64,000 nucleotides of DNA. It comes from Paenibacillus sp. FSL R7-0273 (GTDB taxonomy: Bacteria > Bacillota > Bacilli > Paenibacillales > Paenibacillaceae). Numbering within the stretch: the first letter of the stretch is position 1; the number at the start of each line of letters is the position of its first letter. Shown here in pieces: positions 38,870 through 45,452 of the stretch. The notes beneath the pieces are model-generated. The model was not told the DNA's origin. It was given only the letters and a program-made list of their open reading frames with translations, and made no database searches. Location of the stretch: positions 3,731,501-3,795,500 of the forward strand of contig NZ_CP009283.1 in NCBI RefSeq assembly GCF_000758625.1. The letters are read 5' to 3'. The position numbers and the translations under genes are program-made.

Positions 38870-39052
38870 ATTCAGTCTCTCCCTTATTCATATTCGACAC
38901 TTAGTATGGACACTTAGCAGTGACCCGATGCAAGATGTTTTGCTGCTGTTCATGAAATAGCATAAATATTACTTGCATAAGCAGCTGGTTACCTAGGAAA
39001 ACTTCCATGGAACGATCAAGCAGTGAGATTTGATTTCCGGGAGGTTAAAACA

Positions 39053-39241
39053 ATGACAACTCAGGATCCGAAGGAGCTTCTAAAGAAAAAACACGAGCAG
39101 GATGAGCACAAACGGCAGTTCACCAATTTTGCCCGCAGCGTAAGCGGTCACGGCGAGGAAGAAGCAGGCCAGGAATTCAGTAATGACCGGGTGTCTGATG
39201 ATCAAAACCGTATGAAATCTGTAGAGAACAAACGCGATTAA
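39053..39241 (+). CDS. Small hydrophilic protein of unknown function
   Basis: A 62-residue, highly charged protein (many Lys, Glu, Asp, Gln), without cysteine, signal peptide or hydrophobic segment, and probably disordered. The frame is open from 39023, but GGGAGG lies about 9 bases before the ATG at 39053. A strong bidirectional terminator follows. Such short soluble proteins in spore formers can be spore-associated, but no motif supports this here. Confidence 0.65.
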   Translation: MTTQDPKELLKKKHEQDEHKRQFTNFARSVSGHGEEEAGQEFSNDRVSDDQNRMKSVENKRD

Positions 39242-39257
39242 CCCTGTAAAGGCCATA

Positions 39258-39290
39258 AAGAAAGCCGATCCCGGAAGGATCGGCTTTCTT
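39258..39290. terminator. Bidirectional terminator
   Basis: A perfect 14-base stem AAGAAAGCCGATCC / GGATCGGCTTTCTT with a 5-base loop lies between convergent genes. Confidence 0.93.
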
Positions 39291-40599: not shown

Positions 40600-40697
40600 T
40601 AACATCACCCTTTCCCGATTGTAGAATAAATGACAGATTTTTATTTTATTAACCGGATGTGCCAAAAGACAAACAAAAGCTCCTCATCCCAAAACAA

Positions 40698-40726
40698 TTG
40701 ACCATAGGACAAAACGATCTTATAAT
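40698..40726 (+). promoter_or_regulatory. Promoter of the receptor/peptide pair
   Basis: TTGACC at 40698-40703 and TATAAT at 40721-40726 with a 17-base spacer, 36 bases before the receptor start. Confidence 0.8.
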
Positions 40727-40762: not shown

Positions 40763-41602
40763 TTGTTGGAACTTGATGGAATGAATGCTGATTCATTAAT
40801 CGACATGCTAAAAGCCTCATTCTCTCTAGATAACTGGACAGCCATGATAGAGATATCTGACAAGCTTATAGAAGTAGTCTCAGTCATACATGCAACCAAT
40901 CTGGATGGATTAGAAGCGCAGCTGCTCAAACGGTCTCTAGTTTACTATTTTGGTTTCAGCCTTTGCGCAAAGGGGATCGCTTTTCAGAAATTAGGAGATT
41001 ATAACTTTACAAGGGAGTGTATTAAAAGGTATTCGAACTTGAGCTGGTTAAAGCTTTACGATGAAGATTCATTGTCGGAAATTGAATATTATAAGAGCAT
41101 TGCCGTAGCAAATGCATTTGTAATTGATTTGCTTGAGGGGGACACAAGGGTTCTGCCTGATTATGTTGAATTCCTTAAGACCTGTAGCAGAAATGAGCTT
41201 ACTGCCGGCTTGCTAAACATTTTAGACTCAGCATTAAAATACAATTATTCAGTGGACTCAGCATTGGACGAATTACAAGGTTATGTTATAAAAGCCAATG
41301 CTTCCTCACCAGCTGTAGATGTTCATTATTACATAGAATATACTCATCTATTATCGGTTTACTCATTTAAAAGAGGAAAAATAGAATATGCAATAAACCT
41401 AATAATTGAAAATATAGTATTGAGTGGTAGACTAGGAGATGGGAGCGGTTTTAGAAAGTCGACTGCTTTTTATGAACTTGTTAGAGCTGACGCCAATGCT
41501 TCCCAGCAGCAGGAGTATCACTACATAATGAAAAAAATCATAGAGAGGGAGTTCAATGATGAAAAAGAAGCTTTTGTTATTGACCACCGTATTACTGATT
41601 AG
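40763..41602 (+). CDS. RRNPP-like peptide receptor (AloR/Rap-like, TPR-type)
   Basis: A 279-residue all-helical soluble protein whose helices pair in TPR-like fashion (for example AKGIAFQKLGDYNFTRECIKRYSNL and VYSFKRGKIEYAINLII). I see no N-terminal helix-turn-helix, so it would act by protein binding like Rap proteins, or it is a shortened AimR/AloR relative. The start is TTG (40763 or 40766) after AAAGGGGTGA. Its 3' end overlaps a gene for a 47-residue secreted peptide in another frame, the classic organisation of rap-phr and alo pairs. Codon use is more AT-rich than its neighbours. The receptor call rests mainly on this pairing. Confidence 0.72.
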   Translation: MLELDGMNADSLIDMLKASFSLDNWTAMIEISDKLIEVVSVIHATNLDGLEAQLLKRSLVYYFGFSLCAKGIAFQKLGDYNFTRECIKRYSNLSWLKLYDEDSLSEIEYYKSIAVANAFVIDLLEGDTRVLPDYVEFLKTCSRNELTAGLLNILDSALKYNYSVDSALDELQGYVIKANASSPAVDVHYYIEYTHLLSVYSFKRGKIEYAINLIIENIVLSGRLGDGSGFRKSTAFYELVRADANASQQQEYHYIMKKIIEREFNDEKEAFVIDHRITD

Positions 41603-41699
41603 TTCATTCTCAATTTTGGCTGCGGCAAGTGCTGATGAAGTGAAAAGTGTAGTTTATAAAGGAACAATTACAACAAACACCCATGGTATGGGTCACTAA
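41556..41699 (+). CDS. Secreted signalling pro-peptide (AloP/Phr-like)
   Basis: A 47-residue protein too short for usual gene calling. It has MMKKK, a hydrophobic helix (about 6-21) and an AxA signal-peptidase site (ASA at 24-26), then a 21-residue tail ending NTHGMGH. Phr/Alo pro-peptides have this build, and the C-terminal hexapeptide THGMGH resembles the SHGRGG-type peptides reported for Paenibacillus polymyxa. AGAGGGAG precedes ATG 41556/41559. It overlaps the receptor gene by 47 bases in another frame and ends 58 bases before a terminator. Expected path: export, proteolysis, reimport by an oligopeptide permease, binding to the receptor. Confidence 0.75.
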   Translation: MMKKKLLLLTTVLLISSFSILAAASADEVKSVVYKGTITTNTHGMGH

Positions 41700-41757
41700 A
41701 TTACTATTATTGATTGGATTCTGTTTTGACACCGGACAAGAACATATTCCATTAAGA

Positions 41758-41779
41758 CCCGCGCTGAGCGCGGGTTTTT
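41758..41779 (+). terminator. Terminator of the receptor/peptide operon
   Basis: CCCGCGC and GCGCGGG form a perfect 7-base stem with a TGA loop, followed by TTTTT. Confidence 0.92.
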
Positions 41780-41826
41780 ATTTGTGGAATCAGGTACCTG
41801 CTGGAGGCTTCCCGCTGAGACCGGTT

Positions 41827-41860
41827 TGATCATTTACTGAAACTTGATTTACAATGATCA
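41827..41860 (+). promoter_or_regulatory. Promoter of the orphan kinase with inverted repeat
   Basis: TGATCATT (41827-41834) and AATGATCA (41853-41860) are perfect inverted arms. A TACAAT -10 (41850-41855) overlaps the right arm, and the left arm lies at the -35 position 17 bases upstream. A dimeric regulator could bind here. Confidence 0.5.
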
Positions 41861-41903
41861 TAAAAGGTAATGATACATAGGCTGAAAGGGATGGCGTTAA
41901 ATT

Positions 41904-43286
41904 ATGGTCAGATCTTTATATACACGAGTCGTACTAATCTTTCTGGCTTCTGTAATCGGGGGCACCCTTATATCCTTTTTACTGGCAGCCTGGATCTTTG
42001 AAGATAAGCTGAATGAAAACCTGCAGATTCCTATGATCTATTTCGGCCAGGATATTGCCCGTATGTACGGGACATTCCCGGCAGATGAAGCAAGTGCTTA
42101 TGTGAGCGGAATGAGTCAGCTTAAAATGTATAACCTCAGGTTTTTTGACGAGACCGGCGAGTATGAGTCATTTGGAGAGCCTAACGAATATCAGCCGGCA
42201 ACAGTTACCAAAGAGCAGATCAACCTCATCTTGAACGGAGATGTGGTTCAGGTGAACCGAGGTGTGGTGAGCACTACTCTTGTCGGGCTGCCTTTTACAA
42301 GCAACGGGGAGACCAAAGCCATGTTCATCGACCAAAGAACGCCTACCTCTAACACGCTGGCGATACAATTTCTGCTGAACTTTTCCATTTATACACTGGT
42401 GACAGGCAGTCTGGTTATACTCGTTGCCACCAAGTTCCTCGTTAATCCGATTAAAAAGCTGACGGATGCTACCAGGCATATCGCCGGCGGGAATTTCAAC
42501 ATCAGGCTGAATATTAAGCAAAAAGGGGAGCTGGGGGCGCTGGCCCAGAGCTTTGAAGAAATGACCCGGGATTTGCAGCAGGTGGAGCAGCTGCGCCGGG
42601 ATTTTGTTTCAAATGTATCTCATGAAGTCCAGTCACCGCTAACCTCGATCACCGGATATGCCAAAGCGCTGAAGCAGATGAACCTCCCGGACCGGGAGCG
42701 GGACCGTTATCTGGATATTATTATCTCTGAAGCGGAACGGATGTCCAAAATGAGCGACGGCCTCCTGAAGCTGAGCCTGCTTGAATCACAGTCACAGCAG
42801 CTGCAGTTCAGCACCTTCAGTCTGGATGAGCAGATCAGGCGGGTTATTGTGGCGCTTCAGCCGCAATGGTCAGCGCGCAGCATCAGCTTTGAGCTTCAGT
42901 TAAAGCCCATTCAAATGGAAGCAGATTATGATCTTTTAAACCAGGTATGGACGAATATTCTCGGCAACAGCATTAAATTCTCCAATGAGGGAGGTGCGGT
43001 TACCGTCAGTATCAGGCAGGATAGCAGGAGTGTCATCGTCCGGATAACCGATACGGGAATCGGCATATCTCCGGAGGACCAGCGGCGCATTTTCGAAAGG
43101 TTCTTTAAGGCAGACCGCTCTCACAGCCGACAGAATGGCGGCAGCGGCATGGGCTTAGCGATCGTGAAGCAGATTGTTATGCTGCATTCCGGTGACATCC
43201 GGGCCGAAAGCGAAAGCGGCAAGGGCACAAGCATCATTATTACTTTGCCGCTAAAGCCGCCAACCGGGCAGGCTAATATAACCTAA
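41904..43286 (+). CDS. Sensor histidine kinase, orphan
   Basis: A 460-residue membrane kinase. TM1 at about 8-30 and TM2 at about 155-178 flank an extracellular sensor domain. Then come HAMP (NPIKKLTDATRHIAGGNFN), the HisKA box with phospho-acceptor His240 in FVSNVSHEVQSPL, and the ATPase domain with N box (NILGNSIKFSNEGG), G1 (DTGIGI) and G2 (GGSGMGLAI). Such kinases normally follow a response regulator gene; none is adjacent. It has its own promoter and terminator. The orphan OmpR-type regulator at 21.6 kb is one conceivable partner, without direct evidence. Confidence 0.92.
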   Translation: MVRSLYTRVVLIFLASVIGGTLISFLLAAWIFEDKLNENLQIPMIYFGQDIARMYGTFPADEASAYVSGMSQLKMYNLRFFDETGEYESFGEPNEYQPATVTKEQINLILNGDVVQVNRGVVSTTLVGLPFTSNGETKAMFIDQRTPTSNTLAIQFLLNFSIYTLVTGSLVILVATKFLVNPIKKLTDATRHIAGGNFNIRLNIKQKGELGALAQSFEEMTRDLQQVEQLRRDFVSNVSHEVQSPLTSITGYAKALKQMNLPDRERDRYLDIIISEAERMSKMSDGLLKLSLLESQSQQLQFSTFSLDEQIRRVIVALQPQWSARSISFELQLKPIQMEADYDLLNQVWTNILGNSIKFSNEGGAVTVSIRQDSRSVIVRITDTGIGISPEDQRRIFERFFKADRSHSRQNGGSGMGLAIVKQIVMLHSGDIRAESESGKGTSIIITLPLKPPTGQANIT

Positions 43287-43302
43287 GCATATTCAACCAC
43301 AT

Positions 43303-43341
43303 GGGGCGTGTACATCTAATGGATGTAGCGCCTCTTTTTTT
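43303..43341 (+). terminator. Terminator after the orphan kinase gene
   Basis: GGGGCG and TACATC pair with GATGTA and CGCCTC in one long stem with a small bulge, followed by seven T. Confidence 0.85.
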
Positions 43342-43449
43342 ATGCCAGTTCATACTCCGTTCATATTGCCGTCACGAAGGGGACATATGGACTGGGTACA
43401 CTTTAAACATGCCGATAATACGGCTCTACAGATATAAGGACAGGAGAAG

Positions 43450-44430
43450 ATGAACGTGGAAGAAAATGTGAACATCAGGAACGGAACCGGAATCCGCAAA
43501 AAACGGAGACTGTGGTTAAAGATAATAGGAGGAATACTCCGGGCACTTGTGTTGTTCGTGGGCATTGTATTTATCGTGCATGTGATCAGTAAAGGGGTCG
43601 AGAAAAATAAAATCGAAACTTACGGTCAATATGTCACCGTGGATGACAAGCAGATGAATGTGTTCATTCAAGGCAGCGGTCCACAGACAATCGTCCTTCT
43701 GCCAGGACAGGGGACCCCGTCGCCAGTGCTTGATTTTAAACTGCTGATCGACGAATTGTCCCCGGATTACCGGGTCGTCGCCATTGAACCCTTCGGATAC
43801 GGACTCAGCGACACAACAGATAAGGCAAGGACAACCGAGAATATCGTAAGCGAAATTCACGAAGCTGTTCAGCAGCTGGATATCGGCCGTTACATTCTTA
43901 TGGGACATTCGATCACTGGACTGTACGGTGTGTCCTATGTGAACAGCTATCCTGATGAGGTTCTCGCTTTTGTCGGCATTGACAGCAGTGTTCCGAATCA
44001 ACCCGGTATGGATGTCAAGCTCCCTCTGAAATCAATGCAGCTTCTGCAGCAGTCAGGTCTGATGAGGTTACTCCAAAAAGTGAGCGGAGATGCTTATGCG
44101 TCACTTGACTACGATGAGCATACTAAAGAGCAGATGCGTCTCATTACAAATCAAGTCGGGGGTAATGCAACATTGATGGACGAGCTTAAGCATCTCGGCT
44201 CCAATTTTAAGAATGGAGAACAGCTCACTTATCCTAATGAACTGCCGGTGCTCCTCTTTGTCCAGTCGAACAACGAGCAGAACGAGCAATGGGTTCCGCT
44301 GCATGAGGCCCAAGTCAAACAGTCTGCGCAAGGCCTGATGATCCCGATGGAAGGCTCTCATTACCTGCATCATACGAAATACAAGGAAATCGCTGAGGCC
44401 TTCAAAGATTATATGAAGCATATCCAATAA
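43450..44430 (+). CDS. Membrane-anchored alpha/beta hydrolase, copy 1
   Basis: A 326-residue hydrolase with an N-terminal transmembrane helix (about 22-44) and an extracellular alpha/beta domain. VLLPGQGTPSP precedes the oxyanion region, MGHSITG carries the nucleophile Ser, and the late His lies in GSHYLHH. The elbow is GHSIT rather than canonical GxSxG. The next gene is a close paralogue. The start may be ATG 43450 or GTG 43456, since AGGAG is very near. Substrate unknown; possibly a lipid or small ester at the cell surface. Confidence 0.87.
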   Translation: MNVEENVNIRNGTGIRKKRRLWLKIIGGILRALVLFVGIVFIVHVISKGVEKNKIETYGQYVTVDDKQMNVFIQGSGPQTIVLLPGQGTPSPVLDFKLLIDELSPDYRVVAIEPFGYGLSDTTDKARTTENIVSEIHEAVQQLDIGRYILMGHSITGLYGVSYVNSYPDEVLAFVGIDSSVPNQPGMDVKLPLKSMQLLQQSGLMRLLQKVSGDAYASLDYDEHTKEQMRLITNQVGGNATLMDELKHLGSNFKNGEQLTYPNELPVLLFVQSNNEQNEQWVPLHEAQVKQSAQGLMIPMEGSHYLHHTKYKEIAEAFKDYMKHIQ

Positions 44431-44456
44431 ATAGTGTTCAAGAGGAGAAGAAGCGT

Positions 44457-45452
44457 ATGATTCAACCAGCAGGAGCGGCAGTCCAGAATCGTTCCACAGC
44501 CAAGAAAGTGCTTCATATTGTGCTGAAAATAATCGCAGCGTTCATTATACTTGTCCTGCTTTTTATAGCTGTGGTGTTTACAGTAAATAAAGCAAGCTCT
44601 TATTCAGAACAAAAAAGAACAGATCATTACGGCCAGCTTGTGCCTGTAGACGGTAAACAAATGAATGTGTTCATTGAAGGTCAGGGAAAGGAAACCATCG
44701 TGCTTCTTCCCGGCTATGGAACCGCGGCACCCGCCCTGGATTTCAAGCCGCTTATATCAGAGCTAAGCCCCTACTATAAAGTGGTGGTGGTCGAGCCCTT
44801 TGGTTACGGGTTAAGCGACCAGACCGGGAAGGAACGCACTACCGCCAACATCGTTAGTGAGATTCATGAAGCGCTGCAAAGCCTTCATATTGACCGTTAC
44901 ATTCTGATGGCTCACTCTATCTCCGGACTCTATAGCCTGGATTATGTGAACCAGTATTCTAATGAAGTGAGTGCTTATATCGGGCTGGACAGCAGCGTCC
45001 CTGCATTAAGAGAACAGAGGATTACTTCATCCGACACGAAGCCGGTAAAATGGTTCCGCGACCTTGGCTTCGCCCGCGTCCAGCTGAAGCTAAGTCCCGA
45101 CGCTTATGAGGGCTTGCCATATGATGAGCACACGCTGGATCAAATAAACATCCTGATGCGTAAAAACATGTACAATCCCACTCAATTAAATGAAGCGGTA
45201 AGCATGTATGCCAACTATGATGCAGCGGAACAGCAAAGCTTTCCCGCCAATTTACCGGTCCTGTTCTTTCTCCAGGAGAATCACCCGGTAACAGACCAGT
45301 GGGTTCCGGAGCATGAGAAGCAAATAGAGGACTCTCTGCAAGGAGAAATCATCTTACTGGATGCGGACCATTATTTGTACCGTTCCCATTCCGCTGAAAT
45401 ATCTGAGAAGATAAGAGGTTTCACAGATCAAAATACAAACAGAGCACTATAA
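44457..45452 (+). CDS. Membrane-anchored alpha/beta hydrolase, copy 2
   Basis: A 331-residue paralogue of the preceding gene, 26 bases downstream and presumably in one operon. Shared blocks include KQMNVFI, TIVLLPG, EPFGYGLSD, NIVSEIHEA and DSSVP. The nucleophile elbow is AHSISG. The late His lies in DADHYLYRSH. GAGGAGAAG precedes the ATG. The pair looks like a tandem duplication with divergence mainly in the lid region (about 200-260), which suggests different substrates. Confidence 0.87.
   Translation: MIQPAGAAVQNRSTAKKVLHIVLKIIAAFIILVLLFIAVVFTVNKASSYSEQKRTDHYGQLVPVDGKQMNVFIEGQGKETIVLLPGYGTAAPALDFKPLISELSPYYKVVVVEPFGYGLSDQTGKERTTANIVSEIHEALQSLHIDRYILMAHSISGLYSLDYVNQYSNEVSAYIGLDSSVPALREQRITSSDTKPVKWFRDLGFARVQLKLSPDAYEGLPYDEHTLDQINILMRKNMYNPTQLNEAVSMYANYDAAEQQSFPANLPVLFFLQENHPVTDQWVPEHEKQIEDSLQGEIILLDADHYLYRSHSAEISEKIRGFTDQNTNRAL

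Follow-up and report, generated by a model that had tools for sequence, protein, structure and literature searches.

The peptide receptors of the RRNPP type combine a tetratricopeptide repeat (TPR) domain either with a helix-turn-helix (HTH) or with an N-terminal helical bundle. PlcR and NprR carry an HTH, AimR of the arbitrium system AimR-AimP is an HTH and TPR receptor for a hexapeptide, and the N-terminal three-helix bundle of Rap contacts response regulators. Such a bundle is present in Rap and NprR (PMC9765709), and according to Voichek et al. 2020 (PMC7425212) an N-terminal HTH is common to all Alo receptors. The locus described here lies in a stretch of 64,000 nucleotides of Paenibacillus sp. 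FSL R7-0273 (contig NZ_CP009283.1, positions 3,731,501 to 3,795,500, in the following the window) and consists of a gene for a helical TPR-like protein and a 47-codon gene for a signal-peptide-bearing protein ending in NTHGMGH, which share 47 bases in different frames, just as an earlier note on this DNA had described them. The note had read the pair as an Alo-like peptide-receptor system, which is borne out by the profile homology of the receptor to HTH and TPR receptors of the Paenibacillaceae, many of which have downstream peptide genes, by an all-helical model and by the conservation of the downstream propeptide. With AloR-AloP the pair has in common the homologous TPR domain, an overlapping or adjacent downstream propeptide with a signal, a hexapeptide with the motif HG and several paralogues per genome. 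In contrast to AloR, however, the receptor has neither the HTH nor the roughly 120 residues that follow it, and thus it is not a canonical AloR. This missing DNA-binding domain, on which the earlier note touched only in passing, is the real novelty of the locus, and it is a trait of a whole clade.

Kinship and predicted fold of the HTH-less receptor

The earlier note had proposed a profile search of the receptor. Pfam, NCBIfam and PHROGs gave no match to the window receptor up to an E-value of 1, whereas hhalign of a profile of the HTH-less receptors against one of 47 full-length receptors, including one of P. terrae, gave 99.9% and E 3e-35. Weak TPR_2 matches were found in 18 of 32 HTH-less members, but not in the window receptor itself, and no HTH was detected in the latter by Pfam or NCBIfam, its frame beginning at the TPR part. 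The source genome contains three HTH-less genes with frames of 270-284 amino acids beside three full-length AloR-like genes of 468-480 amino acids, and the short genes align to the full-length profile only from about position 189-190 to 457. Judged from its sequence, the window receptor is thus homologous to residues 190-460, approximately, of HTH and TPR receptors of 460-480 amino acids, without their HTH. The long genes possess an HTH and weakly resemble TPR proteins and AimR, and two of the three also carry a propeptide at their 3′ end, with the endings THGWGG and SNIHGCL. Two of them were scanned and both had HTH matches just under the Pfam cut-offs, and the long-receptor profile matches solved HTH proteins. 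They fit the published description of AloR (PMC7425212), a likening made by description. The NCBIfam AimR model NF038310 gave a weak partial match, far under its cut-off, in 15 of the 47 full-length relatives and in none of the 32 HTH-less receptors. The two further HTH-less pairs of the source genome (G000:C1:720218-721060 and C1:3699539-3700369) have peptides that end in NNHGTGH and LGHGVDH.

The AlphaFold (AF2) model of the receptor is all-helical and TPR-like, with a pLDDT of 88.7. Structural searches with it placed NprR-NprX, Rap and PlcR among the high-ranking matches, but unrelated TPR proteins score alike, so that RRNPP chains were not clearly ranked over them. A sequence search of solved structures with the HTH-less profile returned nothing credible, including no match to PlcR-PapR or NprR-NprX. 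As modelled, the fold appears to have room for neither an HTH nor the N-terminal bundle of Rap: residue 93 of Rap 4gyo is already matched by residue 5 of the model, and because only four residues precede the latter, a Rap-type bundle is absent. The receptor resembles those of the Rap-Phr systems of Bacillus in having no HTH, a TPR-like domain, its own downstream propeptide and a probable output by protein contact. It is nevertheless not a Rap, since it lacks the bundle and its sequence kinship is on the AloR side; nor is it known to have a response-regulator target.

Sixteen positions are conserved to at least 85% in both the HTH-less and the full-length group, and the receptor core is therefore presumably kept across both. 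Another 19 positions show conservation chiefly in the HTH-less group, and 20 chiefly in the full-length group. Ten of these 19 fall into residues 61-93 (permutation p 0.0006, with a window width picked after the sites had been seen), and this helical hairpin could be the output face of the receptor.

Within the genus, the A1 profile detected HTH-less receptors at E ≤1e-60 in 57 of 100 genomes. Of the 82 places, 80 were fetched, while a place in genome G003 and a second copy in G068 (inside locus L141) were not fetched separately; the frame is 267-328 amino acids long in all fetched loci but one, which holds a broken gene. In a FastTree phylogeny, for which every third of 120 listed proteins, plus loci, served as full-length tips, all but one of the 128 short tips are separated from the 53 full-length ones with a support of 0.944. 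After thinning from 190 to 108 tips at 78% identity, IQ-TREE placed 61 short tips in one clade (UFBoot 99) that contains none of the 45 full-length members, so that the lack of a DNA-binding domain, which the earlier note had remarked on for the single receptor, characterizes the whole clade. The remaining two tips are a frame cut by the end of its locus and L033_272. The profile that yielded the short tips was built from relatives of the query and may therefore have overlooked HTH-less genes in other parts of the AloR tree, of which L033_272 is a possible example. A loss of the HTH is a simpler reading of these trees, which carry no outgroup root, than its absence from the start. HTH-less receptors with peptides also occur on plasmids of P. 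polymyxa M1 and SC2, on one P. peoriae plasmid and on one contig of a viral collection. In Brevibacillus phage SecTim467 (locus L203, 65465-70244), a full-length HTH and TPR receptor lies between an annotated Spo0E gene and a 45-amino-acid open reading frame (ORF) that overlaps the receptor end, which is an Alo-like pair on a phage.

In the literature on Paenibacillus RRNPP systems since 2020, as far as it was available and supplementary tables aside, we met no description of HTH-less Alo receptors. The published Alo survey retained matches of at least 250 amino acids (PMC7425212), and such members may therefore sit uncommented in its tables. A published detector requires TPR-HMM matches at E <1e-5 in its default step, with TPRpred and homologue expansion as options (PMC10075063), and it may miss such receptors, as Pfam gives no TPR match to the window receptor at E 1. 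Cluster 8 of this RRNPP_detector is a novel Paenibacillaceae receptor-propeptide cluster that lies beside an AloR pair on a plasmid of B. laterosporus LMG 15441 (Bernard et al. 2023, PMC10075063). On that plasmid, which we take to be pBRLA33, the receptor of the pair that is not AloR-like has 432 amino acids and an annotated HTH. Judged by this annotation, cluster 8 is probably not the HTH-less branch.

Propeptide, likely hexapeptide and selection on both frames

A small ORF with a basic and hydrophobic start, the features by which signal peptides were judged, is found at the receptor 3′ end in 66 of the 80 loci, overlapping the receptor in 54 and directly following it in 12; these are what remained of 71 candidates after five had been judged false or broken by eye (L126, L133, L142, L145 and L149). 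The HG motif is present in 64 of the 80 loci, with the window locus counted. The small frame is thus conserved in relatives, as the reading in the earlier note demands, but its expectation of a hypervariable C-terminal hexapeptide was contradicted. Among 28 close loci, the last six residues are the most alike part of the propeptide, with a mean pairwise identity of 0.82 compared with 0.63 for the signal and 0.33 for the linker. Of these six, HG is nearly invariant while the remaining positions differ by clade. The endings include NHGAGH, [TSN]HGMGH, NHGTGH, xHGVDH, NHGV[DG]Y, NHGA[EN]Y, NHGADF and similar ones.

The length of the mature signal is suggested by precursors with several copies. 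Three NHGANY copies with differing spacers occur in the precursors of three loci, and NHGAEY is repeated in tandem 14 times in L147 (G014:C1:3048695-3052989, 157 amino acids) and eight times in L148 (G020:C144:1-3338, 103 amino acids). These two exceed the maximum of six peptide copies given for AimR, NprR, PlcR and Rap systems in a survey of 2022 (PMC9765709). Because the repeated units have six residues, the hexamer THGMGH is favoured over the heptamer NTHGMGH, the other form that the earlier note had considered, and THGMGH is the likely signal of the window pair. It has the same length as SHGRGG, the AloP13 peptide (PMC7425212). A direct link to AloR13 was sought with a DNA pattern for SHGRGG and a stop, which also admits some other residues and TGG; it occurred at 15 places in 14 of 100 genomes of the genus, none of them with an AloR-type frame of at least 150 amino acids. 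Six places were inspected (L170, L172, L175, L178, L182 and L183), of which four read SHGRGG, all in frames unrelated to AloR.

Both frames of the window pair bear the mark of selection. Compared with the relatives L098 and L084, the receptor has a dN/dS of 0.15 and 0.12, respectively, and the propeptide of about 0.2, whereas the two alternative frames past the overlap reach 1.2-2.5 on few sites. The overlap of 44 nucleotides is unchanged in the two relatives, in comparison to 93 and 111 changes in the 796 other positions of the receptor gene. As the dN/dS is low in the coding frames, the overlap is unchanged and the small ORF recurs, the receptor and the propeptide frame are both real genes under purifying selection and not products of chance.

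Layout and surroundings of the pair

The positions of the features are collected in the table below. The consensus promoter and the strong terminator that the earlier note had seen were both recovered. TTGACC lies 5′ of 54 of 79 homologous receptor genes, compared with 2.9 expected from mononucleotide shuffles, and the folding energy of 41738-41790 is -22.9 kcal/mol (z -5.6). The propeptide may in truth start at a second ATG at 41559, which would give 46 amino acids and a 44-nucleotide overlap instead of the 47 nucleotides of 41556-41602; the spacing of the ribosome site, judged by eye, suits this ATG, and its offset is the assigned start in 21 of the 66 homologous peptide ORFs. Since the window pair and its nearest relatives possess both ATGs, either 41556 or 41559 may be the start.

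Features of the pair in the window (coordinates counted from its first base)
Feature	Position	Strand	Remark
Promoter, -35 and -10	40698..40726	+	TTGACC-17 bp-TATAAT, 11/12 consensus
HTH-less AloR-lineage receptor gene	40763..41602	+	279 aa, TTG start, TPR-like helical fold
Receptor codons 61-93, candidate output surface	40943..41041	+	helices 59-76 and 80-91; 10/19 HTH-less-clade positions
Propeptide gene	41556..41699	+	47 codons, ends NTHGMGH, overlaps receptor 3′ end
Doubly coding overlap	41559..41602	+	44 nt, unchanged between window and two relatives
Predicted signal peptide	41559..41633	+	MKKKLLLLTTVLLISSFSILAAASA; boundary by eye, hydropathy 2.66
Likely mature hexapeptide	41679..41696	+	THGMGH
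Intrinsic terminator hairpin	41754..41778	+	11 pairs

A TTG start was counted by eye, with a ribosome-site heuristic, in 63 of 79 HTH-less receptor genes including that of the window, and the receptor may thus be translated weakly relative to its ATG-started peptide. Upstream of 16 receptors (L096, L100, L103, L107, L113, L114, L116-L124 and L126), a palindrome GTGA-N6-TCAC, which resembles a CRP/FNR-type site, is found and TTGACC is absent. With up to two mismatches it occurs in 20 of 80 loci, four of them outside this 16-locus subclade, compared with about nine from shuffles. An operator-like inverted repeat near the window promoter was set aside as not conserved, judged by eye.

The DNA begins to match that of Paenibacillus sp. 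DMB5 (L036) and PastM-3 (L038) at 40690 and 40686, just 5′ of the -35 element, and ceases to do so at 41775 and 41795, at the terminator; the constrained block reaches from promoter to terminator. The flanks are mostly unlike in both strains, except for a block of about 38953-39290, found at a distance of 5-7 kb from the pair in each of them, and for a 42-column match in PastM-3 to 42095-42135, inside the adjoining kinase-like gene, right behind the terminator. Because these two matches persist, the three pairs probably lie in one old, heavily rearranged region and have not jumped, and the 42-column relic suggests that the kinase-like gene was deleted in PastM-3. As a partner of the pair, this gene (41904-43286; judged by eye to encode a histidine kinase) was weighed and rejected, since genomes G022 and G064 carry the block from 41821 without the pair and the two nearest orthologues of the pair do not have the gene next to them. 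Its adjacency to the pair is older than the window, but it was not kept. G022 and G064 retain the block 41821-45426, with the kinase-like and one or two hydrolase-like genes (by eye), at about 82% as far as 45426 and 44427, respectively, and the order of its surroundings differs there. Among all loci, the widest neighbour cluster is a regulator-like ORF upstream of the receptor in 13 of 80, from two sister groups, followed by a catalase-like ORF in 10 close loci, both named by eye.

Proposed mechanism and its alternatives

We think that the two genes form a unit with its own promoter and terminator, in which the small gene would encode an exported propeptide that is cut outside the cell to its C-terminal hexapeptide, most likely THGMGH. 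The hexapeptide would then re-enter the cell and bind in the TPR groove of the receptor from the overlapping gene. This receptor is related by descent to the AloR-type HTH and TPR receptors, and because the HTH and the residues behind it are absent, it cannot act on DNA as these do. Most likely it binds a protein that is not an AloR, with the peptide switching this binding, a Rap-like logic without the N-terminal bundle of Rap. As a whole, such a peptide-signalling unit is in our opinion a reasonably probable explanation of the locus.

As alternative, the HTH-less receptor could be a modulator or brake of full-length AloRs, acting via mixed dimers or by competition for peptides. The coexistence of three genes of each kind in the source genome, the HG motif common to the peptides of both groups and the published cross-regulation among Alo systems (PMC7425212) would fit this view. 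However, HTH-less receptors are present in 14 genomes that have no full-length match at E 1e-70, and for 13 of these a search at E 1e-5 gave no relative with an HTH, a result that depends on a single full-length profile and a loose first look; the exception is G068, where a frame of 305 amino acids includes an HTH part. It is therefore unlikely that the receptor needs an AloR as its partner, and most receptors have a propeptide gene of their own beside them, so that we regard modulation as a rather unlikely general function, although it is possible in genomes like the source genome. The receptor could also be a mere sink that buffers the intracellular pheromone as a decoy and has no partner, as no effector domain is recognisable in it. 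The clustering of clade-specific positions in the hairpin 61-93, which is not needed for the pocket, speaks against this, if indirectly and with the post hoc choice of width mentioned above, and we think a sink improbable.

A short secreted peptide adjoining a helical protein might likewise be an antimicrobial or another secreted effector, with the TPR protein as its immunity or maturation factor. This is difficult to reconcile with a TPR protein homologous to receptors that bear an HTH, with the tandem hexamer repeats of some precursors and with the likeness to the published AloP13 peptide, and it appears very improbable. Finally, the receptor gene might be an AloR gene in decay after the loss of its HTH, and indeed the propeptide is altered or broken in L103, L126, L133 and L142 and absent at some loci. 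In view of the low dN/dS of both genes in the two relatives and of a clade that retains 61 tips after thinning at 78% identity, we give hardly any credence to decay.

Returning to the peptide-switched receptor of a non-AloR protein, a more far-reaching proposal can be put forward tentatively, at slightly less than an even chance. The TPR-only receptor, neither HTH plus TPR nor bundle plus TPR, would represent a third RRNPP architecture. It would have a single origin on the AloR side, have spread with its own propeptide across chromosomes and plasmids of Paenibacillus and exert direct control over a non-AloR protein via a clade-specific TPR hairpin, which would be an independent reinvention of the logic of Rap. 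Two separate HTH-less branches would mean that the output of peptide receptors has shifted repeatedly from DNA to protein. The HTH-less clade is common across a genus of agricultural use, and it offers a compact receptor whose target can be traced with the help of a known peptide, and thus a widespread and testable variant of the AloR-type receptors.
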